From Gautieria morchelliformis (lineage: Eukaryota; Basidiomycota; Agaricomycetes; Gomphales; Gomphaceae): DNA of 64,000 nucleotides. The translations under genes and the position numbers were made by a program. Positions 6,481 through 63,500 of the stretch are shown piece by piece (positions within the stretch are counted from its first letter, which is position 1; each line of letters begins with the position of its first letter). The stretch is from NCBI GenBank assembly GCA_015179125.1, contig WHVA01000096.1:62001-126000 (forward strand), written 5' to 3'. Under the pieces are notes generated by a model. The model had not been told where the DNA came from and ran no database searches. It saw nothing but the letters and a program-made list of their open reading frames with translations.

Positions 6481-6511
6481 ATGGGGGAAGACCCAAAGTG
6501 CAGTTGGATAG

Positions 6512-6850: not shown

Positions 6851-6869
6851 TCAGGGACATGTATCAGTA

Positions 6870-7180
6870 TCTATTTTGTGACATATATAAAATAGCAAAA
6901 GAAACCACATTTAAGCAGCTGTTCTTATTAATTTTAGCAAAGTCAGGATAATTCATTGATATCTATATTTTCTTTCAAAAAAAAGATAAAAAAAAACACA
7001 CTACATTAAACAGAAGTTGTTATTAACTTTAGCAAAGTCAGATAATTTATTATTGATATCCATTTGCGAAAAAATGTCAAAAAAATGTACAGAATATTTA
7101 AGTTGGCTGTTATTGAGGTTAGCAAGTTAGATTTATTGATGTCTATTTGCGAAAAAATATCAAAAAAATATACAGGACAT
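6870..7180. repeat. AT-rich tandem repeat, about three 85-100 bp units
   Basis: Three imperfect units each contain a TTAGCAAAGTCAG-like block, then ATTGATATCTAT, then a run such as GCGAAAAAATGTCAAAAAAA. Units start near 6886, 6991 and 7086. The base composition is much more AT-rich than the flanks. No gene is seen. Confidence 0.7.
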
Positions 7181-9447: not shown

Positions 9448-10280
9448 TCAAGGAACCCATGGTCCAGGCTTGGCAGGGTAGGCCGAGTGGAAGTCAGTCA
9501 CGATCTCGGATGCATGGCCGAGTTCGGTTGTGAGGACCCATGACGTCTCCTCATCGGTACCTTCATAACCGGCCCAACGGACAAGGTACAGGAGGTTACA
9601 AGGTCTACGGCGTCGGTTGATCTTGGAATCAAGGATCTTGGAAATCTCGTACTTGGTCTCACCGTCAATCTCGACTGGAGGTGGCTGAGACTGAACCCGG
9701 TTTGGAGTGACGTTCGGGGTCGCGGGTTCGAGCATTGAGACATGGAAGACCAGGTGGACTGCCCAAAGGCTGTCCGGAAGCCACAATATGTAAGCTCGGG
9801 ATCCGGCCTGGCCAATGATCTCGAAGGGCCGAGGTACTTTTCAGCCAACTTCTTCGAGGGCCAGGTTGTCCAGAAGAACTGCGCTTTTACAAACGCTAAG
9901 GATCCAATTGCGAACTCGGGGGTGGGAGCACGACGCGCGTCAGCTGAGACCTGGTACCGAGATTGAGTGGATTTGATTTGCTCTTTCAAGGCAGCATGAA
10001 GCTGGTCAAGGTCAACTGCGAAGTCTCGGGCCCAAGAGGAAGCGAGGTCCTATTCAGGGTGAACTGTCAAGTTCAGGTTGTAGCCTTTGTTGGCAAAGAA
10101 CGGCGAAATGCCGGTTGTGGCGCTGGGAGCATTATTGTACGCAAACTCGGCAAGCAGGAGCAACTCGGACCAATTGTCTTGTTGGTAGTTGCAATATACC
10201 CGGAGATATTGTTCGAGAGTTTGGTTTACACGTTTGGTTTGACCATTGCCTTTGGGGTGATAACCAGAGGTAAAATGCAA
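9448..10280 (-). pseudogene. Integrase C-terminus and chromodomain of G1
   Basis: Minus-strand pieces 10280-10050, 9989-9498 and 9786-9448 follow one another with frame changes. The first has FTSGYHPKGNGQTKRVNQ and NNAPSATTGISPFF from the integrase core end. The second has VSADARRAPTPEFAIGS and FVKAQFFWTTWPSKKL from the GPY/F-like region. The third has YEISKILDSKI then NLLYLVRWAGYEGTDEETSW, a chromodomain. In chromoviruses this domain targets integration to modified histones. The closest relative in the window is G2 (56650-58620). Confidence 0.85.
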
Positions 10281-10337
10281 GTTTATGTCGAGAGCTTTGC
10301 CGAGGGAACGGAAAAAGTGGGATACGAATTCCGAACC

Positions 10338-12476
10338 TCAGTCCGATGTCACATGGCTTGGGACACCGTGCTTTGAGAACACATGCAAGACAAACAGGCG
10401 AGCTAGGTCAGCAGAAGTGATCGTGTCATACGTCGGAATGAAGATGCTCTGCTTGGTTAGGCGGCAGACTACCACAAGGATCGCAGTGAATCCCGAGGAT
10501 GCTGGCAACTGCTCAATGAAATCCATGGAGATGGAATTCCACGGTTGCTCCGGTATCGGGAGCTGCTTGAGAGTGCCATAGGCCCGGTGATGCTGTGACT
10601 TCGCACGGGAGCAAGTGGTACAAGACTTGCAGAAGTCGATGACAAAAGACCGAATTGCGGGCCAGGTGTATTCCCGGCGGATTAGGGCAAGGGTCTTGTT
10701 TTGACTGAAATGTCCCGAGAGTACGTGGTTGTGTTTGTACTGAAGTACTCGGAGCTGGAGATCATCGGCATCGGGAATGTATATGCAGCCGTCGTGGCGT
10801 AGGAAGCCGTCGTCGGTTTGCGTCCATCTCGGGTCGGAATGATCTCCGAGATGCCAGCAGGCAACAGGGTCAGATGTCAGGTTGGCTAAGATGTCGGCAT
10901 GAAGCTTCTCAGGGTCCATCATAGTGCTCGCTCGGAGGATGGGTGCAAGCAGGTAAGTTGCCCGGAGTGATTCCAATAATTGTTGGTTTGTGAAAATCGG
11001 TCGGAAGTTTTGCGGATTGACTGAGCCGTAGTCATTACCTCCCTCTTTAAGGTAGACGTCCCATCGTCTAGTTAAAGCGTCGGGTTTCGTACCGAGCTTT
11101 CCAGGACAGAACCAAATAATGAGGTTAAATTGTGAGAGGAATTCGGACCAGCGGGCTTGTTGTTGGGTTAGCAGCTTAGTGGTGGAAACATACTCCAAGT
11201 TTTTGTGATCTGTGACAACGTCGATAGGGGGGCCGGAGCCCTCCAAGTAATGTCTCCAACGTTGAAACACTTCAAATATTGCCAGTAGCTCTTTATCATG
11301 GACATCGTAATTTAGTTCGGCACCGGAAAAAGTTCGAGAGTGGAAGGCGACAGGATGAAGTTCGCCTGCGTCATCGAACAGAGACAGGATCGCGCTGAGG
11401 GCATAATCTGAGGCGTCGGTTTCCACGACCATAGGTCGGTCAGGAACCCAGTGTGACAGGATCGGAGCCGAAGTGAAAGCCTCCTTGAGGTAATTGAAGG
11501 ACTTTCGGCACTCTGCGGTAAATGCCCATGGGGTGCCTTTACGGGTAAGCCGGGTGAGGGGAACAGTGATGTCCAAATAATTGAAGATAAAGCGGCAGTA
11601 AAAATTGGCGAAGCCGAGGAAGGACTGTATGTCTTTGACCTTCCAAGGTTCGGGCCAATCGCAGATTGTTTGGACTTTGTCTTCGGACATGGTAAATCCA
11701 TCGGTAGAGAGCATATACCCAAGGAATTCCACAGAATCACAGTGCCATTCGCACTTATCAGGTTTGGCATAGAGACCGTGTTTCCGAAGACGCTGCAATA
11801 CTTCACGGACATGTTCCCTATGTTTGACCGGGTCATCGGAGTAGATGAGTATGTCTTCAAGGTACACGACGACGCATACATCAAGCATATCTCTGAAGAC
11901 GTCATTCATGAAACGTTGAAAATCCGCAGGACTGGTAAAGCCAAACGGCATGACCAGCCATTCGAAAGAGCTGTAACGGGTCTGGAATGCTGTTTTCCAC
12001 TCGTCGTCTTCGGCGACTCGGACTAGATGGAATGCATGCCGAAGGTCAATTTTTGTATAGATCCGAGCCTTTCGGGGCGCATCCAATAAGTCGGTAATCA
12101 ACGGAAGTGGATAGTGATCTTTCTTCGTAATCTTGTTGAGTGCTCGGAAATCGACACAAAGCCGAAGTTCACCGCTCTTCTTCTTGACAAAGAGGATGGG
12201 GGCTCCATGCCAAGACCGAATGGGCCGAATGTAACCCATATTCAGATGCTCATCTATGAACACTCGGAGCGTAGCAAGCTCCAAGGTAGAGAGTGAATAT
12301 AACGGAGGTTGAGGGGGCATAGCGCTGTCCTCCAGAGTGATCTTGAGATCGTAGGGTCGGTGTGGAGCCAAGGTATCAGCTTTGGACTTGCTGAACACAT
12401 CCGCGAAGTCGTGATACTCCGGCGGGACATCCTTGAGGTCCACAGGTTCGGATTTTGTGGAAGCTGAGCGGGCCAA
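10338..12476 (-). pseudogene. RT, RNase H and integrase start of G1
   Basis: A single 712-residue minus-strand frame. Residues about 1-60 are a linker, with PPEYHDFADVFSKSKADTL typical of the RT entry. RT fingers and palm follow with [18 protein letters not shown] and [13 protein letters not shown]. The active-site box reads VVVYLEDILIYSDD: the first aspartate of the usual YLDD is glutamate. The preceding FGFTSPADFQRF is one residue shorter than in G2. RNase H has VVETDASDYAL and DVHDKELLAIF. Integrase has the H-H-C-C finger ending in FCKSCTTCSRAK, then MDFIEQLP. Although long and open, the altered palm argues against activity. Confidence 0.88.
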
Positions 12477-13000
12477 AGCCTCGGTCTCGGGCGTTGCCAG
12501 ATTTAGCTGGAAGCACTGGGAACCCTCTAACTTGCAGGCACAGTAAAACAGCGTTGAGGAGGACTACCTGAGGGGCCTTCAGACTCGGGGATGGCTCGGC
12601 CGTTGCGGCGCGAGCTGAAGCCGGCGGGGGGTCCACAGGACTGCCCGGAAGGGAAGTTCGGAAAGTAATACTGCCCAATACCCAGTCAATCAACGGATTG
12701 TAGCGGGTGAGCCAGTTGTGTCCGAGAACTACCAAAACAGATGAATCAAGGGGGGTGGCATAAAAGTCTACGGAATGGGTGTGACCATCGGGGAAATGGA
12801 TAGGTAGCTCTACAGCTTCAGTAATTACCGAGTTTGTACTACCATCGAATAAACAGAGCGGGATCGGATCTACGGAACGGGTTCAGAGACTGTATTTACG
12901 GACAAAGATGGATTCTATGAAACAATGGGTAGAGCCGGAATCTACTAGTGCTTTAAAATTTTCATTCAGGACAAGAGACAAGGACAAACTAATTACAAGA
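12376..13000 (-). pseudogene. Aspartic protease region of G1
   Basis: Minus-strand reading gives VVLGHNWLTRYNPLIDWV, the second conserved protease motif, identical in style to G2 (VVLGHNWLTRYNPSIDWV). The DSG-type active site should lie just upstream (12990-12850), where the frame is interrupted: a readable piece around VDSGSTHCFIESIF-like sequence is split by stops. After the protease, low-complexity Ser/Pro/Ala sequence leads into the RT frame. Confidence 0.65.
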
Positions 13001-47172: not shown

Positions 47173-47717
47173 TGTAAGAACCCGGCCTTTGGCTGGTTAC
47201 TTACCGGTATAACTTTCTTCCGAGCCCAAGCCTTGTGATACTCGTGCCCGAGTACATATGATTCTTATCCTGCGCCCGAGCCTGAGCTAGAGCTCATATC
47301 CGACCTTGATCCCCTGCCCGTATCCCCTTAGTTACTGATTCTGCTCCATCACGCATCATTCACATATTACCTCGCCCTGACCTCGCCCTGATCTCCACTA
47401 ATATGTTCGCCCCTGACTCGTACCCTCGCCCCGTATATAAACCCTCCTGTATGCATTCCTACTCCTCAGTCTGAAAATCAACTATCGTATAACTTCGATC
47501 CCTAGCTAGTTTCTAGACCTCGCCTCTTAAGCCAAAACCTTGCCTCTTATTCGTTTGCCTCCGAAGTTGGGACTCGTGCGTAGGGTCAGCGCAGCACATA
47601 AGCTGAAGCCTAGTCCCTCTCCGACTTCCCCATCCAAACCTCGCCCCGTAACCTCGGACCGTACCTCAGGTTTCGCTCCCGACCTTGGTCAACCTTACGA
47701 CGGATCGTATCGTAACA
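47173..47717 (+). repeat. 5' LTR of G2
   Basis: 545 bp. TATATAAA box at 47434-47441 and probable transcription start at 47467 (CAGTCTGAAAAT), 33 nt downstream. The U5 part has the block GGTCAGCGCAGC...TAAGCTGAAGCC (47584-47610), shared in form with G1 and the solo LTR at 57447. Confidence 0.96.
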
Positions 47718-47719
47718 GT

Positions 47720-47731
47720 ATTTTCAGACTG
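47720..47731 (+). promoter_or_regulatory. Self-priming site (PBS) of G2
   Basis: ATTTTCAGACTG, two bases after the LTR end, is the exact reverse complement of CAGTCTGAAAAT (47467-47478), the predicted 5' end of the transcript. No TGG-type tRNA primer site is present here. Confidence 0.85.
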
Positions 47732-47761
47732 CTTACACCCTACATATCCCTTTTCTTCACT

Positions 47762-48990
47762 ATGTCCATGATAACTCGTTCTCGCACCCTTCGGGGTATA
47801 TCAGAACAACGACGTTTCTCGGAAGCCCCCGACGATTCACCACTGTCCCCGGGGATACCCCTTGCAGACCCCGCCGAGCCTAGTAACAAAGGCAAAGGTA
47901 GGGCTGACCCCGGTCACCCTTCAGGTGATCCAGGTGATGGCTCTGGAGGTTCTGACAACGATCAGGACCTCCCCAACCTGCCGCCCGAGGACCTCGGTGA
48001 CCTCGAGGACAACGAGCTTATGCGTCGGGTGTTCATCAAACTCGCGAAACCTCATGAGTCCGAAGCACGAGCCAAGGTCAAGGAACCGGATAGTTATGAC
48101 AGTACTGACCAGGCCAAGCTTCGTACCTTCTTCCTTCAATGCGTACTCAACTTCCGAGATCGTCCCACAGCGTTCAAGACTGGGGCCTCGAAGGTGCAGT
48201 ATGCTATTTCTTACCTGTCCGGCTCAGCTCTACAGTATTTCGAGCCAGCGATCCTCGGCGAAGTCCAACCTGAGCCAGATTGGCTCGAGGACTGGGACAG
48301 CTTCAAGGCCGAGCTCGAGCTCAACTTCGGCCCATACGACAACGCTGCCCAAGCCGAGATTGACCTCGAGAAGATCGTTATGAAGGAGCACCACAAGGCC
48401 ACGCGATTCTTTATCGACTTCGCCCGAGCTTCGACTCGGACTCAGTGGAACGACGCGGCCCTCCAACACTTCGCCTACAAGGGCTTGGCCAAACGAATCA
48501 AGGACGACTTACTTCACTTCCCTCGATTCCACAGCCTCGCCGAGCTTAGGAACTTCGCGCTGGAATGCGACAGCCGTTACTGGGAGCGTAAGGAGTATGA
48601 CGCCATGATCAATGGTCGTAGCTCCCAGCCTGCACGCGCCACTAATCAGTCCAGCAGCAATGCCACTAACAACAACCAGTCTTCCAGCGGTTCCAACAAC
48701 AATAAGAACCGCAACAAGACTAACAACAACGGCAAGGGTTCCAACAACAACTCTTCGAACAACAAGAGCCAGCCCGACATATCGAGCAAGCTCGGGAAGG
48801 ATGGCAAACTACTTCCCGAGGAACACCAACGTCGGTCGACCAAGGCCTTGTCTACTTTGCGGCACCAAAGGCCACATCGTCAAGGACTGCCTGAAGAACA
48901 AGTCTACCAGTGGTAGCGGTTCTAAAGGTCGGGCAGCGAAGACCCCCAACGAGGGGACTTCGGCCTCCATCACAGAGGTGAAAAAATAGG
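47762..48990 (+). pseudogene. gag of G2 (one frameshift)
   Basis: The likely start is MSMITRSRTLRGISEQRR at 47762; the frame is also open upstream into the LTR, which is not needed. Core segments are KVKEPDSYDSTDQAKLRTFF, YLSGSALQYFEPAILGE, ELNFGPYDNAAQAEIDLEK and RNFALECDSRYWERKEYD. An Asn/Ser-rich linker follows. Near 48835 the frame shifts: the knuckle CLLCGTKGHIVKDC (C-x2-C-x4-H-x4-C) is in the +1 frame, ending at 48989. Gag packages the RNA and forms the particle. Confidence 0.86.
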
Positions 48991-49039
48991 TAGCAACCTC
49001 GGAACCACACGATCCGAGGATTGCGGTAACCTCACCCGT

Positions 49040-49579
49040 GTGCTCAGACTCAGTGCCGCTTCTCATTCATTGTCCAAAGATTCCCTTAATGTAGATCTAA
49101 CCTCGCCTTCGCTTCCCAACGTCACTTTTGTTGCACTAGTTGACTGCGGGTCCTCAGATTGTTTTATTGAATCCAGATTTGTCCAGAAGTACTCTATGCC
49201 TGCTTATCCTGTCTCTCCTATACCCTTGAAACTATTTGACAGTAGTACTAACACTACCATTACCCAAGCTCTAGACCTCTGTATCTGCTTTCCGACCGGC
49301 GAACAACAATGGGTTACCTTCTACGTAACCTCGCTCGACTCGAGTTGCTCGGTGGTACTTGGCCACAACTGGCTCACCCGCTACAATCCGTCGATTGACT
49401 GGGTATTGGGCAGTATTACTTTCAAGACCATCGACCTAACTACGACTCCAGCAACCACGGCGACGTCAGCCCGCTCAGCTTCAGCTACGACTTCGACCTT
49501 GCCTACGGCATCTTCGCCCCCGCCTTCGACCTCGCCTCAGAACTCGCCTCCGAAGTTGCAAGCACCGCTCGTTCCCTAA
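49040..49579 (+). pseudogene. Aspartic protease region of G2
   Basis: FVALVDCGSSDCFIESRFV holds the active site in the form D-C-G in place of D-S/T-G. VVLGHNWLTRYNPSIDWV is the second motif. A Thr/Ser/Pro-rich linker leads to the stop at 49579, followed by RT in the next frame at 49611. Whether DCG is functional in this lineage cannot be told from one copy. Confidence 0.8.
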
Positions 49580-49610
49580 TCAATGCACCCGCTTTCATGG
49601 CGCATCTAGA

Positions 49611-50982
49611 TTGGAAGGGTCCGAAGTGTTTCAGCTCAATCTGGCCTCGCCTGAGCTCCTCGCCCAAGGAGCAACATCGGGAGAAAGCTCTTCTGAGCTT
49701 GCTGAGAACGTTAAAAAACATGTTCCCGAAGTATATCACGAATTTGCAGATGTGTTCAGCAAAGCACGCGCTGACACTCTAGCCCCCCACCAACCGCACG
49801 ATATCAAGATCAACCTTGAAGAAGGGACCTCACCGCCTATCGGTCCCATCTACTCTCTCTCAGCTTCCGAACTCAAAGCACACCGCGAGTTCATCGACGA
49901 GCACTTGAACATTGGTTTCATCCGACCTTCGCGCTCGCCTCATGGTGCACCGGTATTGTTTGTCCGCAAAAAAGATGGCTCACTTCGGTTGTGTGTCGAC
50001 TTCCGAGGTTTAAACAAGATCTCGAAAAAAGATCGGTACCCATTACCATTGATTGCTGACTTACTTGATGCTCCAAAGAATGCTCGCATCTATACGAAGA
50101 TTGACCTCCGTCACGCTTACCACCTTGTAAGGGTGGCCGAGGGTGACGAATGGAAAACCGCCTTCAGGACTCGCTACGGGTCCTTTGAATGGTTGATTAT
50201 GCCATTTGGTCTCACTAACGGCCCTGCTGCTTTCCAGAGATTCATGAACGAGATTTTCGCCAACCTTTTGGACGTTTGTGTGGTGGTATACTTGGATGAC
50301 ATTCTAATCTACTCCAGTGACCCCTCCAATCATGTTGAACATGTCAAGGAAGTCTTGCGACGACTGCAACTCAACAACCTCTTCGCCAAAGAAGACAAAT
50401 GCGAGTTTCATCCCGACTCGGTTGAATTCCTCGGCTACATACTCTCTCCCGAGGGCCTCACTATGGCGGACGACAAGGTAAAGGTCATTCAAGACTGGCC
50501 TGAACCTCACATAGTTCGCGACATCCAGTCTTTCCTACGTTTCGCCAACTTCTACCGACGTTTCATTCACAACTACTCCGACATCACCATCCCTCTCACC
50601 TGACTCACCCGCAAGGGTACCCCTTGGAACTTTTCCGAGGATTGTCGACAGGCTTTCAACCTGTTGAAGAAGACATTCACTACCGCTCCTATCCTTACCC
50701 ACTGGATTCCTGACCTTCCACTAATCATAGAGACTGATGCTTCGGATTATGCCTTAGCGGCAATCTTATCACTGCGAACCTCGGAAGGCGAACTTCACCC
50801 CGTCGCTTTTCACTCCCGCACATTCACCTCTACTGAGCTCAACTACGATGTTCATGACAAGGAGCTCCTGGCAATCTTTGAAGCGTTTCAACGCTGGTGA
50901 CACTACCTCGAGGGCTCTGGCGACCCTGTCGACGTTATCACCGATCACAAGAACCTTGAATACTTTTCAACAACGAAGCTCT
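49611..50982 (+). pseudogene. RT and RNase H N-terminal half of G2
   Basis: RT runs [69 protein letters not shown] and the palm [14 protein letters not shown], all intact. TGA stops at 50601-50603 (LT*LTRKG) and 50898-50900 (RW*HYLEG) interrupt it; G1 has Arg at both places. RNase H (IIETDASDYALAAIL, DVHDKELLAIFEAF) reaches [11 protein letters not shown], where Copia-C is inserted at 50983; the frame resumes at 56247 with TRRQAWWSEYLSQF. Confidence 0.88.
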
Positions 50983-51480
50983 TGTTGGGTGCATTTATGC
51001 TCCTGCACCAAAATCAAGCATAATATATCCAATTTGTTGTGTGGCCTTCCAATTTCTTCTCACATTGTTCTTGTATTATGCATCCATTTCTCTGGTTATT
51101 TTCGAAATTTTCCACTCATTCCTTATCTCTCTATTTCATCTTGTTATTCCTACTTTCACAAGCGGCTGCACCCAGCGGAGTCTGAAATGACTTCGACGCG
51201 CGAGCTCTTGGGCGCTAAAGGGCCGGGTAGTAGTACATGCGCAGTGGAACACATTTCCCCCTCTCTCAGTGACCACTAAATTCACTGAGAGAGGCAAGTA
51301 AATTAGTCTAGTAGTCTTTGCATTTATTGACCTAGAAATCCTCTATAGTGAATTGATTTCTAGGTAGTGTATAATATATTTACAGTGACCACTAAATTCA
51401 CTGAGAGAGTGAATTGATTTCTAGTCTATTCTTTTGAATAACAAGTCCATACCTACTGCCTATAATTCCTGTCCTCTACA
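50983..51480 (+). repeat. 5' LTR of Copia-C
   Basis: TGTTGGGTGC to CCTCTACA. A perfect 11-bp stem CTCTCTCAGTG/CACTGAGAGAG (51261-51293) has most of its sequence repeated at 51383-51410, giving the same two-hairpin layout as in Copia-B. Confidence 0.97.
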
Positions 51481-51493
51481 GGGTTATGGGCCC
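51481..51493 (+). promoter_or_regulatory. Primer-binding site of Copia-C, overlapping the start codon
   Basis: GGGTTATGGGCCC is complementary to the anticodon stem-loop of eukaryotic initiator tRNA-Met. The ATG at 51486-51488 inside it pairs with the CAU anticodon and is also the first codon of gag-pol. Confidence 0.82.
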
Positions 51494-54400
51494 CGGAGAC
51501 ACTTCTGAGAAGCTGTTGGGTGTTGAGAAGCTTGCTACTGATGGAAGTAATTGGCCATTGTGGCGAGCCACTCTCATCAGCTATTTCGAGTCCAAAAATC
51601 TGCTCAAGCATGTAGAAGGGAGAGTCACTCGACCTCCCGATCCTCCAGTCATGCCCCCAGGCCATATTCTAACAGAAGCTGAGGAAACTCAGATGGATAA
51701 GGCCGAGGAGAAGCTGGAGAGATACCTTGCTAGAGAAGGACAAGCCAAGACCCAAATCATCGTCTCAGTGTCAGAGTCATTAGCCCTGATGCTACAGAAG
51801 CAGAAGACAGCAAAAGAGACTTGGGATGCACTGGTCAATGAAATGACCAAAAAGCCCAAGATGGTCCTCACCAGCCTGCAGAGACAACTCCGCAGTATGA
51901 GATGTCCTGAGGATGGAGACTTGAGAGATCACTTGGACAAGGCCCAAGACCTATATGCTCGTCTTAATGAGATGGGAGCTAGAGTTTCTGAAGAAGAATT
52001 CATGGACATAATCCTTGCGTCACTTCCACCATCCTATGAGGCAGTCATGAATGCCCTTACAACTTCGCTTGAAGAATGCGGGATGCCATTGGTCCCTGAT
52101 AATATTATTAGGGTACTAAAGGCTCAGTATGACAGGAAGAAAACACTCCCGCAAGAAGAGCAGGTGTTTATTGGTTCATCTACTAAGAAGGACCAGAAGG
52201 GGCAGAAGGCGCATGTATGCACCAACTGCAAAAAGCCTGGACATTCCATCGAAAATTGCTGGGCTAAAGGAGGTGGTAAAGAAGGTCAAGGACCACGTCA
52301 GAAGAAGAAAGCCAAAGGCAAGAAGAAGAAGAAGGGTAAAGCAAAAGCGAATGTTGCCGAAGAAGAGTCTACTTCTGAGGAAAGTGGTGATGGGCATCTT
52401 GCCTTCACCAATTTCGACGAGTGCTCTAATTTCAATTTGAGCACATCCTCAGGAGTTATAGTCATACTCGACACCGGAACGACATCGCATATGACTCCTC
52501 ACAAAAATTTATTGAGGAACTACTGTCAATTCTCACAGCCGAGGACTATCCGAGCAGCCAACAAAGGTACCTTTGATGCCTTCGGCTCAGGACTGCTCGT
52601 ATTATCCAATAAGGTTGGAGATAGAACAGTAGAAGTCACGTTGCAAGATACATACTATGCACCCAAAATTGCTGCTACCCTCGTCTCGATCGGTCGGTGC
52701 GATGATGCTGGCTACGACATTCGACTCGGTGGCCAGAAATGCACAATATCTAATGCTGCTGGAAAAGTATTGATGCAAGCACCGAAAGTCAATGGCTTAT
52801 ATCGACTAGACCTCCAGTCACCAAGTGCTCAAGCCCATATGTGTTTATCTGCCATGGAAATTCATCAAAAGATGGGGCACATCTCGCAGAAGTCCCTACA
52901 ACATCTATTAAATCATGGCATGATATTGGGCATTGAACTGAGCTCCACAGGCGATAGAATTGTCTGTGATGCGTGTATTCAAGCCAAGATTGCGCGCAAA
53001 CCTCTTCCTCGAGAACCCAGAGACCGAACATCAAAATTCGGTGACAGAATTTATTCTGATGTCTGGGGACCTGCAAGACACCTCACGATCGATAAGAAGT
53101 CATATTATGTCTCCTTTATCGATGACTACTCAAGAGAATCGGTGATCTATCTCATGGCGAACAAATCAGAAGCATTCTCAAAGTACAAGCTCTACGAGGC
53201 TTTAATGCTTCGACAGAGAAATGTGCACATCAAGGCACTTGTTTCTGATCGAGGGGGCGAGTATATGAGCTCTGAATTCGAACAGCATCTAGCCAAACAA
53301 GGCACGAAGCATCAGTTGACGGTACACGACACACCAGAGTCCAATGGTGTTGCGGAACGCCTGAACCGAACTCTCACTGAGAGAACTCGTGCCATGCTGC
53401 TAGAATCAGGCCTTCCTAAGATATTATGGGGCTATGCGATACAGCATGCCAATTATCTTAGGAACAGGACGCATACAAGAGCTCTACCAGATAAAACGCC
53501 CTACGAGATGATTCACCATGAAAAACCGAATCTCAAAGACATTCACGCGTGGGGAACTGAAATTTACGTTAAAATCACTCAGGGAGATAAATTGGCAGCT
53601 CGTGCCAAGAGAGCTCGGTGGATAGGAATTTCTGCGCAGAGCCATGGTCATTATGTTTATTGGCCTGACTCGCACAAAGTTTCTGTCGAGCGGAACGTTG
53701 TCTTTGATTCAGAAATGAAGAAGGGAAAGGTCCCAATCATTTCTATTGAGGAATCCAAGCTACCTACGTCTAAAGAAGAGAAGAAGGCCATTCCGGCATT
53801 AGTGCCTGTGCCCGGTCGCTTAGTCAGCGAAGAGGCAAAGATCGAAGAAATTGATGAAAGTGCACCGGAAGAATATCTTGAAAAGCTGCAACCTATTCAG
53901 GGAGTTGATGACAGACCTAGAGAAGCTGAACCGATAAGGAGAAGCGAAAGGATCCGTCAACAACAAGTGCAGCCGGCCCCATCAGGTCCCGTGACAAGAT
54001 CTCAAACTCAGAGACAAACTGGCGCACATATGACTACGCTAGCTTACGAGGACGTTGAGGACCATAAAGAAGTTTTATTCGACCAAGAATTATCCTCCGA
54101 GATTGATGGCATCAGTAGCTATGAGTGTGCCATCAGTGCGTTTCTAACCGACGGTCAAAACAATAACAAGGCGCCGGATTTGAGTCAAATTGAACCTAGC
54201 AATGCAGACGAAGCTCTGAATAATCCTATGTGGAAGAAATCAATGGACAAAGAGTATGAGGCCCTAATCGACAAGGGAGTGTGGGAAAGAACCAAACCAC
54301 CTCCTGGAGCCAACATTGTCGGCAACAAATGGGTCTACCTTTGGAAGCGTAATCCAGAAGGGAAACCAATAGTACCTAAATCGAGAATGGTCGCCCAAGG

Positions 54401-55730
54401 CTTCACGCAGAAGTTTGGAATCGACTATGATGAGACATACTCACCTGTTGCTCGGTTATCCTCCCTACGGATCATATGCGCCATTGCTGCTAGGAATGAC
54501 TGGCCTATTCATCAAATGGACGTGGACTATGCATACCTCAATGCTACGTTGCCCGAACCTATTTACATGAAGCAGCCGTATGGATATGAGTCAGGAGACA
54601 AAGGCGAAGTGCTACTTTTGAAGAAAGCACTCTACGGCCTCAAGCAATCTGGAAGAGAATGGTACAAACGTCTAAGTGGTGAATTCCACAAGTTAGGATT
54701 CACTACGTCAGCCACAGACGGGGCTGTATTTTATAGACGTGGCGGAAAGGGGCATGTGATCATTGCAACAGCTGTGGACGACCTTACCATCACAGCTGAG
54801 AATCAGTCAGTCCTGGACGAAGTCAAACGAGATCTTGCTCAGGTCTTCAGTATGAAAGATCTAGGCGAGATTCATTGGCTATTGAATCTCAAAATCGAAA
54901 GAGACTGGCAGAAGAAGACCATTGCAATTTCACAACCTGCATACATCGAGAAGATCATCAAAAAATTTAATCTCGAAGATGCAAAGACTTATGCTACGCC
55001 TCTTGATCCAGCCGTAAAATTATCTAAAGACCAATGTCCTTCTACAGAGAGAGGCAAGAAAGCCATGTCGAAGTTTCCATACAGGCAAGCTATAGGATCA
55101 CTGATGTGGGCGGCTGTAGCCACTCGACCTGACATTGCATTTGCGGTGTCATTACTCTCGCAATTCCTTGAAAATCCAGGTGGCACACACTGGAATGCAG
55201 TCAAACGTGTCTTCAAATATTTGAAAGGCACGAAGCATTACAAGCTCACACTTGGAAGAAATCAAGACGGCTTGATGGGGTATTCAGATGCGGATTGGGG
55301 TTCACAGAGTCATAGGCGTTCGTATTCGGCATACTTATTTCAGATTGATGGAGGCACTGTTTCATGGAGTTGCCAGAAACAGTCAATAGTAGCCCTCTCA
55401 TCAACTGAAGCCGAATTCGTCGCCCTGACCCATGCGGGCAAAGAGACTCTTTGGATGCGCCATTTTATTTCTGAAATATTCCAACCACTGAACAGACCCA
55501 TCCAAGTTTATTCAGACAATCAATCAGCCATTGCCATCACGTATGGCACCCAACAACACACGAGAACCAAGCATTTCGACATCCGATTATATTTCCTTCG
55601 AGATATAATCAAAAATCAACAAGCCAAGCTCGTTTATTTGCCAACCGAACAAATGTTGGCAGATATCCTCACTAAAGGACTTCCTAGTCCTAGAGTGAAG
55701 ATTCTCAACGAGCAAATCGGAATATATTAA
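51486..55730 (+). CDS. gag-pol polyprotein of Copia-C
   Basis: One 1414-aa frame. Gag is residues about 1-300, with NWPLWRATLISYFESKNLL and the knuckle CTNCKKPGHSIENC near 245, then a Lys-rich stretch. Protease is near 328 (ILDTGTTSHM). The integrase finger is at about 459-500 (HQKMGHISQ, CDACIQAK) and its core has YSDVWGP (525), SDRGGEYMSSEFEQH (588) and ESNGVAERLNRTL (618). RT runs from about 947 (NKWVYLWKRNPEGKPI, HQMDVDYAYLNATLP) with catalytic TAVDDLTI near 1096. RNase H has SDADWGSQSHRRSYSAY and STEAEFVAL (1267-1305). All catalytic residues I can place are present. The start lies inside the PBS; the next Met is 54 residues further and would cut gag. Confidence 0.97.
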   Translation: MGPGDTSEKLLGVEKLATDGSNWPLWRATLISYFESKNLLKHVEGRVTRPPDPPVMPPGHILTEAEETQMDKAEEKLERYLAREGQAKTQIIVSVSESLALMLQKQKTAKETWDALVNEMTKKPKMVLTSLQRQLRSMRCPEDGDLRDHLDKAQDLYARLNEMGARVSEEEFMDIILASLPPSYEAVMNALTTSLEECGMPLVPDNIIRVLKAQYDRKKTLPQEEQVFIGSSTKKDQKGQKAHVCTNCKKPGHSIENCWAKGGGKEGQGPRQKKKAKGKKKKKGKAKANVAEEESTSEESGDGHLAFTNFDECSNFNLSTSSGVIVILDTGTTSHMTPHKNLLRNYCQFSQPRTIRAANKGTFDAFGSGLLVLSNKVGDRTVEVTLQDTYYAPKIAATLVSIGRCDDAGYDIRLGGQKCTISNAAGKVLMQAPKVNGLYRLDLQSPSAQAHMCLSAMEIHQKMGHISQKSLQHLLNHGMILGIELSSTGDRIVCDACIQAKIARKPLPREPRDRTSKFGDRIYSDVWGPARHLTIDKKSYYVSFIDDYSRESVIYLMANKSEAFSKYKLYEALMLRQRNVHIKALVSDRGGEYMSSEFEQHLAKQGTKHQLTVHDTPESNGVAERLNRTLTERTRAMLLESGLPKILWGYAIQHANYLRNRTHTRALPDKTPYEMIHHEKPNLKDIHAWGTEIYVKITQGDKLAARAKRARWIGISAQSHGHYVYWPDSHKVSVERNVVFDSEMKKGKVPIISIEESKLPTSKEEKKAIPALVPVPGRLVSEEAKIEEIDESAPEEYLEKLQPIQGVDDRPREAEPIRRSERIRQQQVQPAPSGPVTRSQTQRQTGAHMTTLAYEDVEDHKEVLFDQELSSEIDGISSYECAISAFLTDGQNNNKAPDLSQIEPSNADEALNNPMWKKSMDKEYEALIDKGVWERTKPPPGANIVGNKWVYLWKRNPEGKPIVPKSRMVAQGFTQKFGIDYDETYSPVARLSSLRIICAIAARNDWPIHQMDVDYAYLNATLPEPIYMKQPYGYESGDKGEVLLLKKALYGLKQSGREWYKRLSGEFHKLGFTTSATDGAVFYRRGGKGHVIIATAVDDLTITAENQSVLDEVKRDLAQVFSMKDLGEIHWLLNLKIERDWQKKTIAISQPAYIEKIIKKFNLEDAKTYATPLDPAVKLSKDQCPSTERGKKAMSKFPYRQAIGSLMWAAVATRPDIAFAVSLLSQFLENPGGTHWNAVKRVFKYLKGTKHYKLTLGRNQDGLMGYSDADWGSQSHRRSYSAYLFQIDGGTVSWSCQKQSIVALSSTEAEFVALTHAGKETLWMRHFISEIFQPLNRPIQVYSDNQSAIAITYGTQQHTRTKHFDIRLYFLRDIIKNQQAKLVYLPTEQMLADILTKGLPSPRVKILNEQIGIY

Positions 55731-55743
55731 GCTTGAGGGGGCG

Positions 55744-56241
55744 TGTTGGGTGCATTTATGCTCCTGCACCAAAATCAAGCATAATATATCCAATTTGTTG
55801 TGTGGCCTTCCAATTTCTTCTCACATTGTTCTTGTATTATGCATCCATTTCTCTGGTTATTTTCGAAATTTTCCACTCATTCCTTATCTCTCTATTTCAT
55901 CTTGTTATTCCTACTTTCACAAGCGGCTGCACCCAGCGGAGTCTGAAATGACTTCGACGCGCGAGCTCTTGGGCGCTAAAGGGCCGGGTAGTAGTACATG
56001 CGCAGTGGAACACATTTCCCCCTCTCTCAGTGACCACTAAATTCACTGAGAGAGGCAAGTAAATTAGTCTAGTAGTCTTTGCATTTATTGACCTAGAAAT
56101 CCTCTATAGTGAATTGATTTCTAGGTAGTGTATAATATATTTACAGTGACCACTAAATTCACTGAGAGAGTGAATTGATTTCTAGTCTATTCTTTTGAAT
56201 AACAAGTCCATACCTACTGCCTATAATTCCTGTCCTCTACA
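55744..56241 (+). repeat. 3' LTR of Copia-C
   Basis: Same 498 bp as the 5' LTR with no difference seen. Confidence 0.97.
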
Positions 56242-56246
56242 GCTCT

Positions 56247-58256
56247 TGACCCGTCGACAAGCTTGGTGGTCAGAATACCTTTCCCAATTCAACCTCGCCA
56301 TCCGTTTCCGACCTGGTCACCTCGGAATGAAGCCTGACTCTCTCACTAGACGATGGGACGTCTACCTTAAAGAGGGGAATAGCGACTATGCCACCATAAA
56401 CCCACAGAACCTACGGCCAGTGTTTACTCAACACCAGCTGGCATCGTCCCTTAGAGCTACTAACCTCGCTCCCGTCGTACTCCGAGCCGCTTCGCTGCTT
56501 GATACCGAGCAGATCCGAGCTGACATACTAGCGAACCTCCCCTCGGACCCCATAGCCAAGTCGCACCTCGGCTTGGGTGATGACCCGAGGTGGACCACAG
56601 ACCCTGAGGGTTATCTCAAGCTTGACAACCGAACCTATGTTCCAGCGGCCCAAGACCTTCGACTTCACATCCTGCAATACAAGCACGATCACATTCTCTC
56701 GGGACACTTCGGGGTCAACAAGACCTTGGAGCTGATCCGACGAGACTACACTTGGCCAGGGATTAGATCCTTTGTCAAGGAGTATTGCAAGACGTGTACC
56801 GCGAAGCAAGCCGCAACGTCACAAGCCCTATGGTCTCCTTAAACAACTTCCAGTTCCAGAGAAGCCTTGGAATTCCATCTCTATGGATTTCATTGAGCAG
56901 CTTCCCCCTTCATCCAAGTTCACCTCCATACTAGTGATTGTTGACCGCTTCACTAAGCAGGTTATCTTCATTCCAACCACCGACAAGATAACTTTGCAAG
57001 AGCTCGCTCACCTCTTCGTCCTTCATGTCTTTTCCAAGCATGGAGTCCCCTCGCACGTCACCTCGGACAGGGGTTCCGAGTTCGTCTCGCACTTCTGGTG
57101 TTCTCTAGGGAAGTCCTTGGACATGCGGTTGCATTTTACCTCGGGATATCATCCCGAGGGTGACAGTCAAACCGAGCGTGCTAACCAGACCTTGGAACAG
57201 TACTTCAGGATATACTGCAACTATCAACAGTCCAATTGGGCTTCACTCCTTCCCCTCGCCGAGTTCGCTTACAACAATGCGCCTAGCGCAACCACCGGCA
57301 TATCCCCATTCTTTGCTAATAAGGGTTACCACCCGAACCTCGCAGTCCACCCCGAGCGCGACCTCACCTCGGCACGAGCTCGAGACTTCGTGGTTGACCT
57401 GGACGAGCTACACCAGGAACTTCACCGCGCCATCCTCGAGGCTCAGTGTTACGACCATTCATTTCCGACTTCCGACCTTCAGTTCCGCAACACTTTCCGC
57501 CCCTCCGATATTTCCGACATTCCACCCATTGTTCTATTCCCTTGTTCTTTCGACTCTATTACTCGGACCCACCGGACCCGCTTCATCGTTCATCAAAACC
57601 ATATGTCCGGTCACCCTTGTAGTTTCGTTGTCAGATATGTTTTCCCGACCCCTTGTTCTTTGCCATTGTTCTACCTTACCCTGAACCCCCCTTGTAGTCC
57701 CATTGTTCCCAATTAGTTAGTTCCCACGCATTGTCTACTCGACTTCCACTTCCCCCGGAACTTGCTTAGTACTATCCCATTACCTGTTGTCTCAGCTCTT
57801 TGTATAAAAGCCTGTCATGTATGTCTGTTATTCTGCAATCAGATTATCGCCTTCAATACTTGATTTCCTTCGCTCCATCTCCTGTTCTTAGTACAGCAAG
57901 TCTAGCAAGATCTCAGTCTCTCTCCGCCTTCCGCCTCAGTTCCGACTCAGGTTCCGACCAACCTTTGGTTCAGTACCTTCCGACTTCCGACTCAGTTCCG
58001 AAATACTTAGGACGATAGTTCATTGGGGGCGCAACCTATAAGTTGAAGCCGCTGTCCTTTCCAGTTCCGACTTAGTGGAAATCTCGATACGTAACACTCA
58101 GAAGACCTACCAAGCCTCGGCCGATGTTCGCCGCAAACCCGCTCCTGATTTCCAAATCGGATCCCTCACCTTTGTAAAGGCACAGTACTTCCGAACAACT
58201 CGGCCTACCAAGAAGCTCGCCAAGAAGTTTTTGGGTCCTTTTGAGATCATTTCCTG
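56247..58256 (+). pseudogene. RNase H end and integrase of G2, split by a solo LTR
   Basis: 56247-56842 continues RNase H (RFRPGHLGMKPDSLTRRWDV) into the integrase finger (HILSGHFGVNKTLELI, YCKTCT), where a deletion removes part of the finger and shifts the frame near 56800. From 56850, LLKQLPVPEKPWNSISMDFI, VIVDRFTKQVIFIP, HVTSDRGSEFVSHFW and HFTSGYHPEGDSQTERANQT give the core. The solo LTR interrupts at 57447. The frame resumes at 58102 (KTYQASADVRRKPAPDFQIG, VKAQYFRTTRPTKKL) and stops at a TGA near 58256 (EIIS*AG), again a likely former CGA. Confidence 0.85.
57447..58096 (+). mobile_element. Solo LTR in G2 integrase (chromovirus type)
   Basis: 650 bp from TGTTACGACC to ATACGTAACA (7-bp inverted ends TGTTACG/CGTAACA), with the exact duplication CTCAG (57442-57446, 58097-58101). 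It has a TATAAAAG box near 57814 and the U5 block GGGCGCAACC...TAAGTTGAAGCC (58026-58050) resembling those of G1 and G2, so it comes from a related chromovirus family with no full copy in this window. Confidence 0.93.
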
Positions 58257-58296
58257 AGCGGGTACTCACTCCTTCACCCTTCGACTTCCAGAACAC

Positions 58297-58620
58297 ATGC
58301 ATTCAGTCCATCCAGTATTCCACATATCCATGTTAGAACCAGCCTCGCCCAACACCATCCCGAACCGAGTTCAGCCTCCTCCACCCCCAGTCGTCATCGA
58401 CGGCGAGCCCGAGTTTGAAGTCTCGGAGATCCTCGACTCGAAGATCGATAATAGATGGAAGAGCTGCAAACTGCTGTATCTTGTTAGGTGGACTGGTTAC
58501 GAAGGTACCGACGAAGAAACCTCGTGGATCCTCGCTTCCGAGCTTGATCATGCCTCGGAGCTGGTCACCGATTTCCACGAATCTTATCCGGGCAAGCCGG
58601 GACCTTTGACTGCTCTATGA
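58297..58620 (+). pseudogene. Chromodomain of G2 pol
   Basis: Reads FHISMLEPASPNTIPNRV (the C-terminal integrase edge), then FEVSEILDSKIDNRW, LLYLVRWTGYEGTDEETSW and ELVTDFHESYPGKPGP. In frame it follows the TGA near 58256. Chromodomains of this class direct integration to heterochromatin marks, in keeping with the dense nesting around it. It ends 113 bp before the stop of the antisense gene, so the two units converge. Confidence 0.88.
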
Positions 58621-58732
58621 TCATTTCCTTGTTTAACCCCCATGAACCCAGTAGTTAGATAACAAAATCCCCTCACAACCGAACAACAAAAATCAATAAA
58701 ATCCAAGAAATTCCATTATTTCCCTTAGTAGT
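58621..58732. other. Convergent 3' spacer in G2
   Basis: A-rich spacer between the end of pol and the stop codon of the antisense gene. It likely holds the 3' ends of both transcripts: AATAAA occurs at 58694-58699 on the plus strand. Confidence 0.45.
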
Positions 58733-59726
58733 TTACTCCAACATCCTCATATCCTCTCCCTCACTCTCCTCGCTACCCTTGCCTGACTCCTCCTCATTAC
58801 TACTGCTACTTCGCTCCACCAGACCCCCATGTCCCCCATAATCCACCAAGTCCCTCACCCCCTGCATCCGCTTCAAGTAATTCCGCCTCCTCCTTATCCT
58901 CATGAACTCCACATCCACCCGGTTCATCCTATCATTCGCCGCCCTAAACTCCCCCAACAACTCACACACCCTTTCCCCAACCTCGCCAACCTTCTGTCCC
59001 ACGTCCCTCACCGCCGCTATCAACTCCCTCATCTCTGCACTTCGCTCTGACCTTTTCGTCTTCTTGTCTTTCTTCGCCCTCCGACCTTCCACCTCGGTTT
59101 CCTCCACCTCGGCTTCCTTCCCCTCACTATGTCTCGCTCCCTCTGACCCCTTACCCTTCTCCTCACTCTGCCTCGCTCCCTCTGACCCCTTACCCTTCTC
59201 CTCGCTCAACCTCGCTTCCATCCGCTCCACCTTCGTCTCAAGGTTCCGCTCGACCCAGTCACTTGAGTCATCGTCCTCTGCAACCTCGTCCCGAACCTTG
59301 GCCTCTTTCCTCGTCCTCGGTCCATCCTCGGTGTCCTCGCTCCTCGCCCGCTTCTTGCCTATGGCACTCACCTGACCTTTTCCTGGGGTCGCCTTGCTGT
59401 GACGACCATGGGCTATACTACAGCCCAAGGAGCGTGTCCTGCACCACACGCAGGCACCCTGGTCGGTGAGGCCGAAGTCGAGGCTAACGGCCCGAAGGCA
59501 CGTATAGTTGCGCTCTTCGCAGCGCGCGCACCTCGCCTCGGCCTTGGTCGCGAGTTGCCACTCACGAGGTCCTCCGTCGGCAAGCTTGTACCCGTATAGG
59601 GACAAGTCTGTAGGGTGGTACGAGAACAACATGCGTTTATACTGTACAAGTCAGCAGCGTCCATGACCAGACAACGATGATACTCACCTTCTTGCCGTTG
59701 GGCCCTTCCTGCCACGGTTTCCGCAT
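58733..59726 (-). CDS. Antisense gene inside G2: Zn2Cys6-like cysteine cluster plus charged coiled-coil-like region
   Basis: Two exons on the strand opposite to G2: 59726-59688 and 59641-58733, joined by a 46-nt GT-AG intron (59687-59642) with a CTGAC branch-like word. The product is 315 aa. Exon 1 reads MRKPWQEGPNGKK and flows into YKRMLFSYHPTDLSLYGYKL. Residues about 51-86 hold CARCEERNYTC and CVWCRTRSLGC, that is C-x2-C-x6-C, 15 residues, C-x2-C-x6-C, the layout of fungal Zn2Cys6 clusters with a long loop. A basic patch (KKRARSEDTEDGPRTRKEAK) and two near-identical SEEKGKGSEGAR units follow. A Lys/Glu-rich stretch and a heptad-like region (AVRDVGQKVGEVGERVCELL) come next, then an acidic Ser-rich tail. 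No stop or shift is seen although G2 pol has several. The start could lie further upstream if the TGA near 59764 is a mutated codon. Function is unknown; DNA binding is inferred. Confidence 0.75.
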
Positions 59727-60007
59727 ATCTATGGCCCCCGCATCCTTGATGGGTCGCGGGACCACGTCGGGTCGAACGCGTTGTTCGTGCTGTTTTCATC
59801 GATAGCAGAGTTGAAGAGGGCTTGAGGGTGCACCATATTCGTTGGCACTTGGGTTTGCTGCCTCCTACCCACCCTTTTATCTAACCTCGGCTACGATTAA
59901 GCTTCGCCTTTCCGGCGACTTAACATCAGGCCGGGATCTAGATTCGAGGATAGGCGAACCTTGTTCATATTACGGCCTCGAGGGTCTTGGCCATAAGGAG
60001 GGGATAC
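59727..60007 (-). promoter_or_regulatory. Probable promoter and leader region of the antisense gene
   Basis: 281 bp between the antisense start codon and the 3' LTR of G2. No coding frame of the element is left here. A weak TATA-like word, GATAAAAGG, lies on the minus strand near 59880. The plus-strand purine tract for second-strand priming closes the region at about 59996-60007. Confidence 0.4.
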
Positions 60008-60546
60008 TGTAAGAACCCGGTCTTTGGCTGGTTACTTACCGGTATAACTTTCTTCCGAACCCGAGCCTTGTGATACTCGTGCCCAAGTACATATGATTCT
60101 TATCCCGCGCCCGAGCCCAAGCTCATATCCGACCTTGATCCCCTGCCTGTATCCCCTTAGTTACTGATTCCGCTCCATCACGCATCATTCACATATTACC
60201 TCACCCTGACCTCGCCCTGATCTCCACTAATATGTTCGCCCCTGACTCGTACCCTCGCCCCATATATAAACCCTCCTGTATGCATTCCTACTCCTCAGTC
60301 TGAAAATCAACTATCGTATAACTTCGATCCCTAGCTAGTTTCAAGACCTCGCCTCTTAAGCCAAAACTTTGCCTCTTATTCATTTGCCTCCGAAGTTGGG
60401 ACTCGTGCGTAGGGTCGGCGCAGCACATAAGCTGAAGCCTAGTCCCTCTCCGACTTCCCCATTCAAACCTCGCCCCGTAACCTTGGACCATACCTTGGGT
60501 TTCGCTCCCGACCTCGGTCAACCTTACGACAGATCGTATCGTAACA
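60008..60546 (+). repeat. 3' LTR of G2
   Basis: 539 bp. Relative to the 5' LTR I count about 22 substitutions, roughly 17 of them at sites where one or both copies show TG or CA for an inferred CG, plus a 6-bp deletion near 60123. Confidence 0.96.
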
Positions 60547-60551
60547 CTCGT

Positions 60552-63500
60552 CGTCACCATGTCTTGTGGCTGCTGTCCATATGCCAGACTTGAGCCGTGG
60601 ACACTCTGCTTTTCGGTGCCCTGGCTGGCCACATTCGAAGCATGTGACGCTGCTCGGAGCATTGCTGGGTCGATCTGGTGGTCGACCCGCTGGTTTTGGA
60701 GGGAAGTTCGGTTTTGACAAGCTTCCCGATGCCTGAGGCTGTTTAGTCTCAGGTGGCCATCCCGCCGGGACAGGACGGGGCGGTGGTGGACGTTGGGATG
60801 TTCTGCTCCTCTGAAAAGGGGCAGGCCTGCTCGGGCCTGTCTGCGACGCCGGTTTGCTCTGCGCGAACCGTGATGCGCTGGCTGTTGCCGCTGCGCTCTC
60901 TGCCCAATGCATCCCCATGTTGTATCGGGATGCTTCCTCGATCATGCGGGCTGCTTCAAAGAGCTGCTCGATAGAGCTGCTTTCCGCATTGTAGCCCTTC
61001 TTGAGGACCTCATTGCACAGTGTTTCGCGCAATGCAGACACGAACCGTCTCCGGAACGTGTAGTTGTTGGGTGGCTGTATCATGTGAGCTGCGTATTTCG
61101 TGAGATCGTTCAGCATTTCCTGAATGGTCTTTGTGCCCTGCATGACCGCATCAAAGTGGTGGTATGTCAGGGTGGGCAAGAACCAATTCTGCAGGCCCTG
61201 CATCACCGTTTCTAAGGTCCAATCGCGGACCTGGCGGTCGAAACATTTGACGTTTCGAAGAAACCATTCTTGGGCCTCGCCAGTGAGGCGAGTGCCCACG
61301 TACCCGACCTGCATATCAATGCTGGTTGGTCCTAACAGGCAGTTCATCTTGAGCCATCTCAAGATGGCCGCGATGAAGAACTCGAACTCTTCGAGGTCGG
61401 ACCCTCCTGTGTATGGCTCGGGATGGGCCAGCTTTATGCCGGCCTTTGCCAGCGCGGACCTTTCAGGGTCCGTGTCTATGGTGTCGGCCATCGCGACGGG
61501 TATCATTCATGTGATACCGTCGTATGGCTCTTGCGCGCTTTCTGGCTGGTCCAGTATGCCCTGGCGCTCAGTTGGCGCCATGGACCAGTCATGCGGCTGT
61601 GATGTCACACGGGCCATGTCAGTATAGGTTCTGACTGGGGCCGGGTCTGGCTCTGGGCCGGGTGCCTCAGGTGCGTGGGTTACTGGCGGGGGCGTGTGAC
61701 GTGTGTCACCCGTCAGTCCTGTGTTGCGCAGGCACAGCCTGCTATTGTAGGCTGTGTGCGCTTGTCGTGCATCCTGTACGGCACGCGTGAGCAGCTCGTC
61801 AGGCTGCCGGTCAGTGTGGCCTTGGGCCATGGCAGCTGCAGCATTCTGCGCTAACAGCTTGAGAGCCCATGTGTGGCGACGTGCCGCACTGGCTTCTTTC
61901 CTTTGCCAGTGCGCAGCCTTGAGCTCCAGGCTCTCCGTCGTGGTCTCAGAGTTGGGCTCTGAGACAACCTGTTCTCTGATGATCTGTTGGATCATCTTGC
62001 AGCTGTTCGTTGGTGCAGCCGGTTCTGCATGTGATTCACTTCTGAATCGTACGCCTTTTTCAACAGGGGTGGCTGGCGGTGGCATGCATCGTTGGTCCTG
62101 CTCCTGTCGTCGTTGGTCGTCGGGGGGGCGAGCCTGTTTGCTCACCGCGGCGTGGGGTGCATTCCTGATGGACGCTATGGGCTCTTCGTGTGAGCGAAGG
62201 GCTTTTTGCACATCTTCTAGTGATGCCGCATCCCGTTTTCGGATCTCCTCTGTTTGGTGGAGTTCCTTACCAAGCTGCATGAGGGACATTGCGATATCGT
62301 TGAGACACGACAATATGTGCTCATGCTTATGGCCTGTGAGCATGTTTCGGTGCAGTGCGTCCTGTACTTGCTTGGCCATCATGTCCGCCATCTCATCGTC
62401 AATGCCATGCATCCTTGAGCTTTTGCGACTCGAGCTTGAGTATTCCGAGGCTTGCCCGTCATCGTTGGGCGCTCGTCTTTTGTGTTGTCGTGCCCCTTCA
62501 GGGACGACGGTTGTCGCTTGACTCCGTGAGCGGCGGGCTGAGTTTCTCCTTCGAGATTGTATCGAAGCATGCCCCGTGTAAAGATTGGTTTTTAGGCGTT
62601 AATATCGTGTATTAGTGAACACAGCGAATGCCTGAATAACTTGTGCGAATAAGTATGCCATTTGGCGAAGAGGGTGAACCAATAAATGTTCACAAGATCA
62701 GAGGGCTGCCCGAACGGGGCCTGCCCTATCTACAGTTGTAGCGAAATGGCTCATGACACTTGATGATGCAACGTGCAAGGTGTCTCGGAAAGGTTGTCTA
62801 AGTAGCAACAATCCTTTTGCCGGCGAAGGTGCCCCTTCGGAGCCCTTTGCCGACAGCACAGAAATAGTTCGAAGGCTAAGGTAACGAAGATGAAGTATGG
62901 AAACTCACCAGTGATGCCTAAGTCTTCCTCTGGTTGAAGATAGAAATATACAGGAGAAGGCTCAAGACGATAGTCACAGCGAGGTCAGCTTTTTGCACAA
63001 GATGGACATATGATAATCGAACTGGGGAATATACATGCGAATGTAAACTACTTATATCGAATGCTCGTATGGTAACAGCGAATAGGAAAGAGGCCGTCAT
63101 GAGTCAGGGTTGGATAGGGGTGCGCAGTCATGATACAAATAGATGGAATAAACATACAATAGAATGAAAGAGGGGTGCGAACATGAAACAACGGAGAGGA
63201 AAGAGGGCGAAGGCACCTATGTATGAAAACACACCTTGGGACCCGCATATACACCACCCTGCATGGACTCTTCGTCTGCTGGGTTGATCCCACATGACCT
63301 ACAGGTAGGATGTCCCGCGAATGTATCCGGGCCATATGAACACCTAAAGGGGTTGGATCGAGAAGGTGATGGGGCCAGTGATGAACCATCATGCCGGGTA
63401 AATGGTGTCGACCGTGTTTGATGGCGTGCCTGCTGGCGAATGATGTGAGCAGCGAATGGTTGTTTGGAGAATGGGGCGAACAGCGAATGGAGTGAACATT

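Follow-up and report, generated by a model that had tools for sequence, protein, structure and literature searches.

The window analyzed here, a stretch of 64,000 nucleotides (nt) from Gautieria morchelliformis (GenBank assembly GCA_015179125.1, contig WHVA01000096.1, positions 62,001 to 126,000 of the forward strand), contains a long terminal repeat (LTR) retrotransposon, G2, that carries an additional gene on the strand opposite to pol. G2 is a Ty3/gypsy chromovirus with both LTRs, flanked by the 5-bp target site duplication (TSD) CTCGT and interrupted twice. Reverse transcriptase, integrase and a C-terminal chromodomain, the set by which chromoviruses are recognized, were found in a sense pol gene between the LTRs. 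The antisense gene sits between the chromodomain open reading frame (ORF) and the 3' LTR, tail-to-tail with pol, and the stops of the two genes are 112 nt apart (Table 1). Comparison of copies across the assembly (122 Mb, 1113 contigs) indicates that this region is almost certainly a genuine protein-coding accessory gene of the element, with one intron, located beside at least 122 of the best 150 chromodomain matches and under purifying selection.

The gene model was built from the window copy and 40 other copies (41 in total). The 40 other copies were taken from the top of a score-ranked list or hand-picked from its middle, a sample biased toward intact genes. Exon 1 began with ATG GTG in 40 of 41 copies, with one copy lacking a start, and was 207 nt long in 33 copies, 206 nt in three, and 205, 204, 201 and 149 nt in one copy each. 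The intron was 46 nt long in 35 copies, 47 nt in four and 48 nt in two. Its 5' splice site read GTGAGT in 38 copies (GCGAGT, GTAAGT and ATGAGT in the remaining three), its 3' splice site was YAG in all 41, and a branch-like CTGAY was present in all 41, at a constant distance in 40. Several interior positions varied among the copies while these signals stayed, and intron retention would break the frame in every copy. When copies were translated, the TAG scored as an internal stop in the genome search was the 3' splice site itself. Splicing of the predicted gene is supported by this comparative evidence. Exon 2 had 284–302 codons in 25 of the 26 copies whose model was uninterrupted, and 340 codons in the other. 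In 20 of the 21 copies with enough upstream sequence, a TATA-like GATAAAAGG preceded the ATG by 45–47 nt. Exon 2 of the window copy also contains a direct duplication spaced 39 nt (59116–59216) with a repeated EEKGKGSEGAR unit; this duplication is one source of exon 2 length variation between copies.

A first-pass annotation, made from the letters of the window, had proposed the antisense two-exon structure with its 46-nt GT-AG intron between the chromodomain and the 3' LTR, and this structure held. The annotation had also begun a 315-amino acid (aa) protein at 59726 and described the frame of the window copy as fully open, and both points had to be corrected. Position 59726 is an internal ATG, with the conserved start upstream at 59836, and a 58-nt deletion in exon 1 of this copy introduces a frameshift and a stop, so that the 315-aa protein starts at the internal ATG. 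The broken state noted for the pol of G2 was confirmed: a TGA interrupts the frame at 50601–50603, integrase is split into two frames near 56736–56842, and a Copia element and a solo LTR have been inserted, both as later events. In other copies of the element, pol frames reached 1249 aa.

The full-length predicted protein is about 360 aa long and includes a 69-aa N-terminus from exon 1. It contains a conserved block that ends in C-x2-C-x6-C-x15-C-x2-C-x6-C in 16 of 16 aligned copies. Beyond the cysteines, it contains basic patches, a helix with a hydrophobic 3-4 repeat, a stretch rich in Arg and a Ser/Glu tail. The heptad positions read M-L-V-V-V-V-V-L-F-A-M in 13 of the 16 copies, with a single change in each of the other three. 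Single-sequence AlphaFold2 predicted a helix at residues 179–269, with predicted local distance difference test (pLDDT) values of 87–96 for blocks over residues 201–260 and 67–70 just outside, and a shorter helix at residues 126–154.

The earlier description of a zinc-cluster gene stood in part. The six-cysteine pattern, the basic patches, the heptads and the acidic tail were all found, and the pattern was intact in the family, with all six cysteines kept in 40 of 41 copies (L049 was without one). The family assignment did not stand, as Pfam returned no match and the PROSITE PS00463 Zn2Cys6 spacing was present in 0 of 16 copies. The term zinc cluster is therefore used here for resemblance only. 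Neither PF00172 nor PF04195 (TRP28) was matched by the antisense protein in Pfam searches, and a sequence search of the PDB gave nothing usable.

At least 133 matches to the antisense gene were found in the genome (129 of 569 candidates scored). A pattern representing the zinc region, with up to three mismatches allowed, was found at 203 genomic sites, versus none for a reversed control pattern. Twenty top-ranked stretches were read with their flanks. The antisense gene was tail-to-tail with a chromodomain in all 20, and an LTR was found on its other side in 19, with none within the stretch for L035. For at least 73 of the 133 listed antisense-gene matches, a chromodomain match from the best 150 of 2906 candidates lay no more than 400 nt away in tail-to-tail orientation (median gap 120). 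The antisense gene or a piece of it was found in the proper orientation beside at least 122 of these best 150 chromodomain matches, a count made up of 97, 12 and 12 from the lists, the last 12 at distances of up to 2.5 kb, plus one from direct reading. Homologues restricted to unlinked host genes, with the window copy unique, had been named beforehand as a finding that would speak against an element gene. The homologues are instead linked to the element, and the window copy is far from unique. An isolated host gene inserted by accident is ruled out by this multi-copy linkage.

Distances between copies of the antisense gene and distances between the corresponding pol genes were correlated (r = 0.855 in 16 of 20 copies, with L025, L028, L034 and L029 left out; 0 of 2000 permutations were as high). 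The two LTRs differed by 0–6.3% in 11 copies, with 4.1% in the window copy, and a 5-bp duplication was visible in the flanks read for seven of the 11 copies examined for LTR pairs. The antisense genes of the three youngest copies (L040, L042 and L043; LTR divergence 0–0.2%) were uninterrupted.

A comparison of nonsynonymous (dN) and synonymous (dS) divergence across copies had been proposed as a check, and the ratio obtained was not near 1. Pairwise NG86 estimates for 817 of the 820 pairs of the 41 copies gave a mean dN of 0.062, a mean dS of 0.310 and a dN/dS of 0.20. By divergence, dN/dS was 0.34–0.39 at dS 0.02–0.1 and 0.19 at dS 0.3–0.5, with 37 pairs falling outside the reported dS bins. 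Such a gradient is as expected from selection in the multiplying lineage and relaxation after insertion. Relative to a null with a matched spectrum of base changes and CpG contexts, variants common to at least two copies gave a ratio of 0.43, and singletons gave 0.72. Exon 1 was likewise constrained (0.43 for shared variants), and the two wrong frames gave 1.15–1.49 and were apparently unconstrained. In the same 19 of 20 copies (L028 was left out for low coverage and the poorly aligned L029 was kept), dN/dS was 0.215 for the antisense gene and 0.180 for the integrase-chromodomain region. Two marks of an aORF-3R were found: an antisense ORF between the end of pol and the 3' LTR, and presence in most copies (at least 122 of 150) with conservation like that of gag-pol, as in the two ratios just given, though with weaker constraint than pol for shared variants.

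Some copies have lost the cysteine region. In L064 (C182, 112500–113950), the whole region is missing relative to the reference L017 through an in-frame deletion of 210 nt between GGCCGAGG repeats, and the deletion junction (up to three mismatches) was found at two places, C182 and C404 (70576). A related deletion in L065 (C352, 108830–110050) shifts the frame. The C182, C404 and C352 elements have their chromodomains within open frames 1249, 335 and 1063 aa long, so not every copy requires the cysteine region in cis. A strict cis need for it is ruled out by these three elements, which fit a protein that is partly dispensable or is provided in trans.

Protein databases were queried with the window protein, with a profile of 16 copies and with the zinc region by itself, and no homologue outside this genome was found; 7991 candidates were scored for the profile and 41 for the zinc region alone, the latter with no match. 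A scan of viral contigs gave 23 pattern matches and no relative. The sole protein-database match, P0001, is a chimeric G. morchelliformis model that shares the last 88 aa with the antisense protein. Masked repeat genes are nearly invisible in these databases, since this single model compares with 203 genomic pattern sites.

A second gene with two C-x2-C-x6-C halves, apparently multi-exon and multi-copy, was observed at L023:962–2403 (minus strand, C359). It had at least 98 genomic matches and a weak Zn_clus match (E = 1), and it lies near Copia-like gag-protease sequence. In P0001, located at C170, the N-terminal part of this gene is joined to the C-terminal end of the antisense gene. Weighed as a relative of the antisense gene, the L023 gene had no demonstrated homology to it.

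The first-pass statement that the proteins of LTR elements are normally all sense-encoded was too broad, as antisense genes have been described at the same place in elements of plants and in Boty, an element of fungi (excerpts of PMC7264820, PMC11963269 and PMC8365987). The literature consulted places antisense genes of LTR elements in flowering plants, deltaretroviruses and one ascomycete element. The gene of the ascomycete element, brtn, was reportedly first described by Zhao et al. in 2011. According to PMC7264820, PMC4227169 and PMC8365987, Boty-like chromoviruses of Botrytis cinerea and Sclerotinia carry brtn antisense between pol and the 3' LTR. G2 is thus like the brtn elements, as described there, in being a fungal Ty3/gypsy element with a chromodomain and an extra antisense gene between pol and the 3' LTR. 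It differs in that the host of Boty is an ascomycete, and the two are likened by description, not by sequence. Among plant elements, Retand, Grande and RIRE2 have antisense ORFs (aORF-3R) with a TRP28 domain, and gene23 of Grande has its own upstream promoter (passages of PMC11963269 and PMC7264820). Retand, however, belongs to a plant non-chromovirus lineage, and its TRP28 domain (PF04195) is unmatched by the Gautieria protein. The word intron is absent from the texts of PMC11963269 and PMC7264820.

HBZ of human T-cell leukemia virus type 1 (HTLV-1) is transcribed antisense from the 3' LTR side, starting at several positions inside the 3' LTR, and has spliced and unspliced forms; its product, a nuclear basic leucine zipper (bZIP) protein, carries an activation domain and represses the viral LTR (excerpts of PMC10186651). 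The Gautieria gene, as reconstructed by comparison of copies, resembles HBZ and APH-2 to APH-4 in being an antisense gene at the 3' LTR side with an intron and heptads. HBZ is retroviral and has a bZIP rather than a cysteine cluster, and no homology is claimed; moreover, the Gautieria TATA-like box lies between the gene and the LTR, whereas HBZ transcription starts within the LTR. Fungal Zn(2)-Cys(6) factors (PF00172) share two C-x2-C-x6-C halves, a basic patch, a coiled coil and an acidic tail with the predicted protein, which differs from them in the 15-residue linker between its half-clusters and in the negative Pfam and PROSITE comparisons given above. Among the open-licence papers listed, judged by title and the start of the abstract, no such gene was found in a basidiomycete element. 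The Gautieria gene looks like a spliced basidiomycete variant of the antisense genes of LTR elements, with no relative in the databases searched.

Taken whole, the best explanation is probably a genuine antisense gene of the element that encodes a nuclear, dimeric, trans-acting regulator. A TATA-type promoter belonging to the gene and lying just internal to the 3' LTR would drive an antisense mRNA, from which the intron of the 46-nt class would be removed. The protein of about 360 aa would enter the nucleus and dimerise via its C-terminal coiled coil, and the cysteine cluster and basic patches would contact nucleic acid. The protein would act in trans on the element, its likeliest job being to regulate LTR transcription and copy number. 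Regulation in the manner of HTLV-1 HBZ is conceivable by analogy, though somewhat short of probable. Since splice signals are strand-specific, the intron would be invisible to the sense genomic RNA and would survive each round of retrotransposition. Survival of an antisense intron had been proposed from the window copy, and the intron found in all 41 copies read is consistent with it. It is a rather doubtful extension that a fungal chromovirus independently evolved an HBZ-type system, in which an intron-bearing antisense gene for a dimeric zinc-cluster regulator, expressed by resident copies, would control the LTR in trans. If this were true, the few zinc-deleted elements could be natural dominant-negative or escape variants.

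Several observations weigh against a regulator gene of this kind. Transcription, splicing and the protein are predictions from genomic DNA. The gene model was broken in 15 of the 41 copies, the window copy included, despite the bias of the sample toward intact genes. For variants shared among the 19 copies, the ratio was 0.18 for pol and 0.42 for the antisense gene, which is thus the less constrained of the two; for singletons it was 0.89 for pol and 0.75 for the antisense gene, with pol slightly less constrained. The correlation between gene and pol distances fell to r = 0.37 with the poorly aligned L029 kept. Two of the youngest copies, L042 and L043, had a stop in the examined part of pol, so an intact antisense gene in a young copy is no proof that the element is autonomous. 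No Pfam family was found for the antisense protein at E values up to 1 for the window copy and up to 10 for L061. Single-sequence AlphaFold2 gave pLDDT below 50 over residues 1–125, with no reliable fold for the cysteine region, and elements without that region exist (C182, C404 and C352).

The main rival explanation accepts the protein as real and gives it an accessory place in the complex for replication or integration, with a role in nuclear entry, chaperoning or, together with the chromodomain, target-site choice. The pairwise constraint resembling that of integrase (0.215 versus 0.180) and the nucleic acid-binding appearance of the basic patches and six cysteines agree with such a role, and intact copies could help zinc-deleted elements in trans. 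An antisense promoter, however, would produce the protein independently of the particle proteins, and an acidic Ser/Glu tail with a coiled coil would seem more regulator-like than particle-protein-like; this explanation is considered unlikely. Quite unlikely is a protein that shields the element from host silencing, as an anti-silencing or chromatin factor, or that serves the host after co-option. Its nuclear type of composition, the chromodomain of the element and the keeping of the gene across long divergence would suit such a protein, but the 20 flank-read copies were all within elements and no separate host copy was recognised among the matches listed.

A functional antisense RNA, forming double-stranded RNA with the 3' end of pol and carrying its ORF incidentally, is very unlikely. 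The gene and pol are convergent with stops 112 nt apart, so an RNA overlap is possible, and roles of antisense RNA are discussed for plant elements in PMC7264820; yet selection acts on the reading frame, the correct frame alone is constrained, and the six cysteines are kept in 40 of 41 copies. It is hardly credible that the ORF opened by chance in sequence that is random or was captured recently. In its favour, exon 2 has a charged and repetitive middle part, but the dN/dS of 0.20, the kept splice signals, the 203 pattern sites and the unconstrained wrong frames stand against it, and a chance ORF is ruled out by selection, the pol comparison in 19 copies and the preserved splice signals.

As a selected, multi-copy, intron-bearing agaricomycete case, the antisense gene offers a natural test of whether antisense genes regulate their elements, and its intron is a clean case of one that retrotransposition cannot remove. 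It also cautions that genuine genes of elements are hidden by repeat masking: one annotated chimeric protein was found by similarity, versus 203 pattern sites.

Table 1. Coordinates in the window of G2, its antisense gene and the insertions in its pol gene.
Feature	Position	Strand	Sequence or structure	Evidence or remark
Host element G2	47173..60546	+		LTR-LTR BLAST 95%; boundaries; TSD CTCGT on both sides; RVT_1, rve, Chromo
5' LTR	47173..47717	+	TGTAAGAACC...CGTAACA	LTR comparison, boundaries
pol, reverse transcriptase part	49440..50603	+		Pfam RVT_1, E 1.4e-38; frame interrupted by terminal TGA
Nested Copia element inside pol	50983..56241	+		TSD GCTCT; outside the antisense gene
pol, integrase part	56736..57446	+		Pfam rve; read as far as the nested solo LTR
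Nested solo LTR inside pol	57447..58096	.		TSD CTCAG
pol C-terminus with chromodomain	58258..58620	+		Pfam Chromo, E 8.6e-08
Antisense exon 2	58733..59641	-	302 codons + stop	Cysteine region, basic patches, heptad helix, acidic tail
Antisense intron	59642..59687	-	46 nt, phase 0, GTGAGT...CTGAC...CAG	Splice signals kept in 41 copies, interior varying
Antisense exon 1 from conserved ATG (59836)	59688..59836	-	149 nt here	58-nt deletion, frameshift, stop
TATA-like box	59873..59881	-	GATAAAAGG	Candidate promoter of the antisense gene
3' LTR	60008..60546	+		Differs 4.1% from the 5' LTR

Other element sequences were observed in the window around G2. A gag-like ORF with a CCHC-type motif, recognized by eye, adjoins the 3' LTR of G2 on the opposite strand (60463–61506, minus strand) and looks like part of another element. 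The pol of a related chromovirus, with about 72% nucleotide identity over integrase, is located at 9448–12563 on the minus strand. No recognisable LTR or antisense gene was found beyond its chromodomain, so this copy is uninformative about other families. A tandem array with a 17-bp period and 18 overlapping register copies occupies positions 6441–6897.
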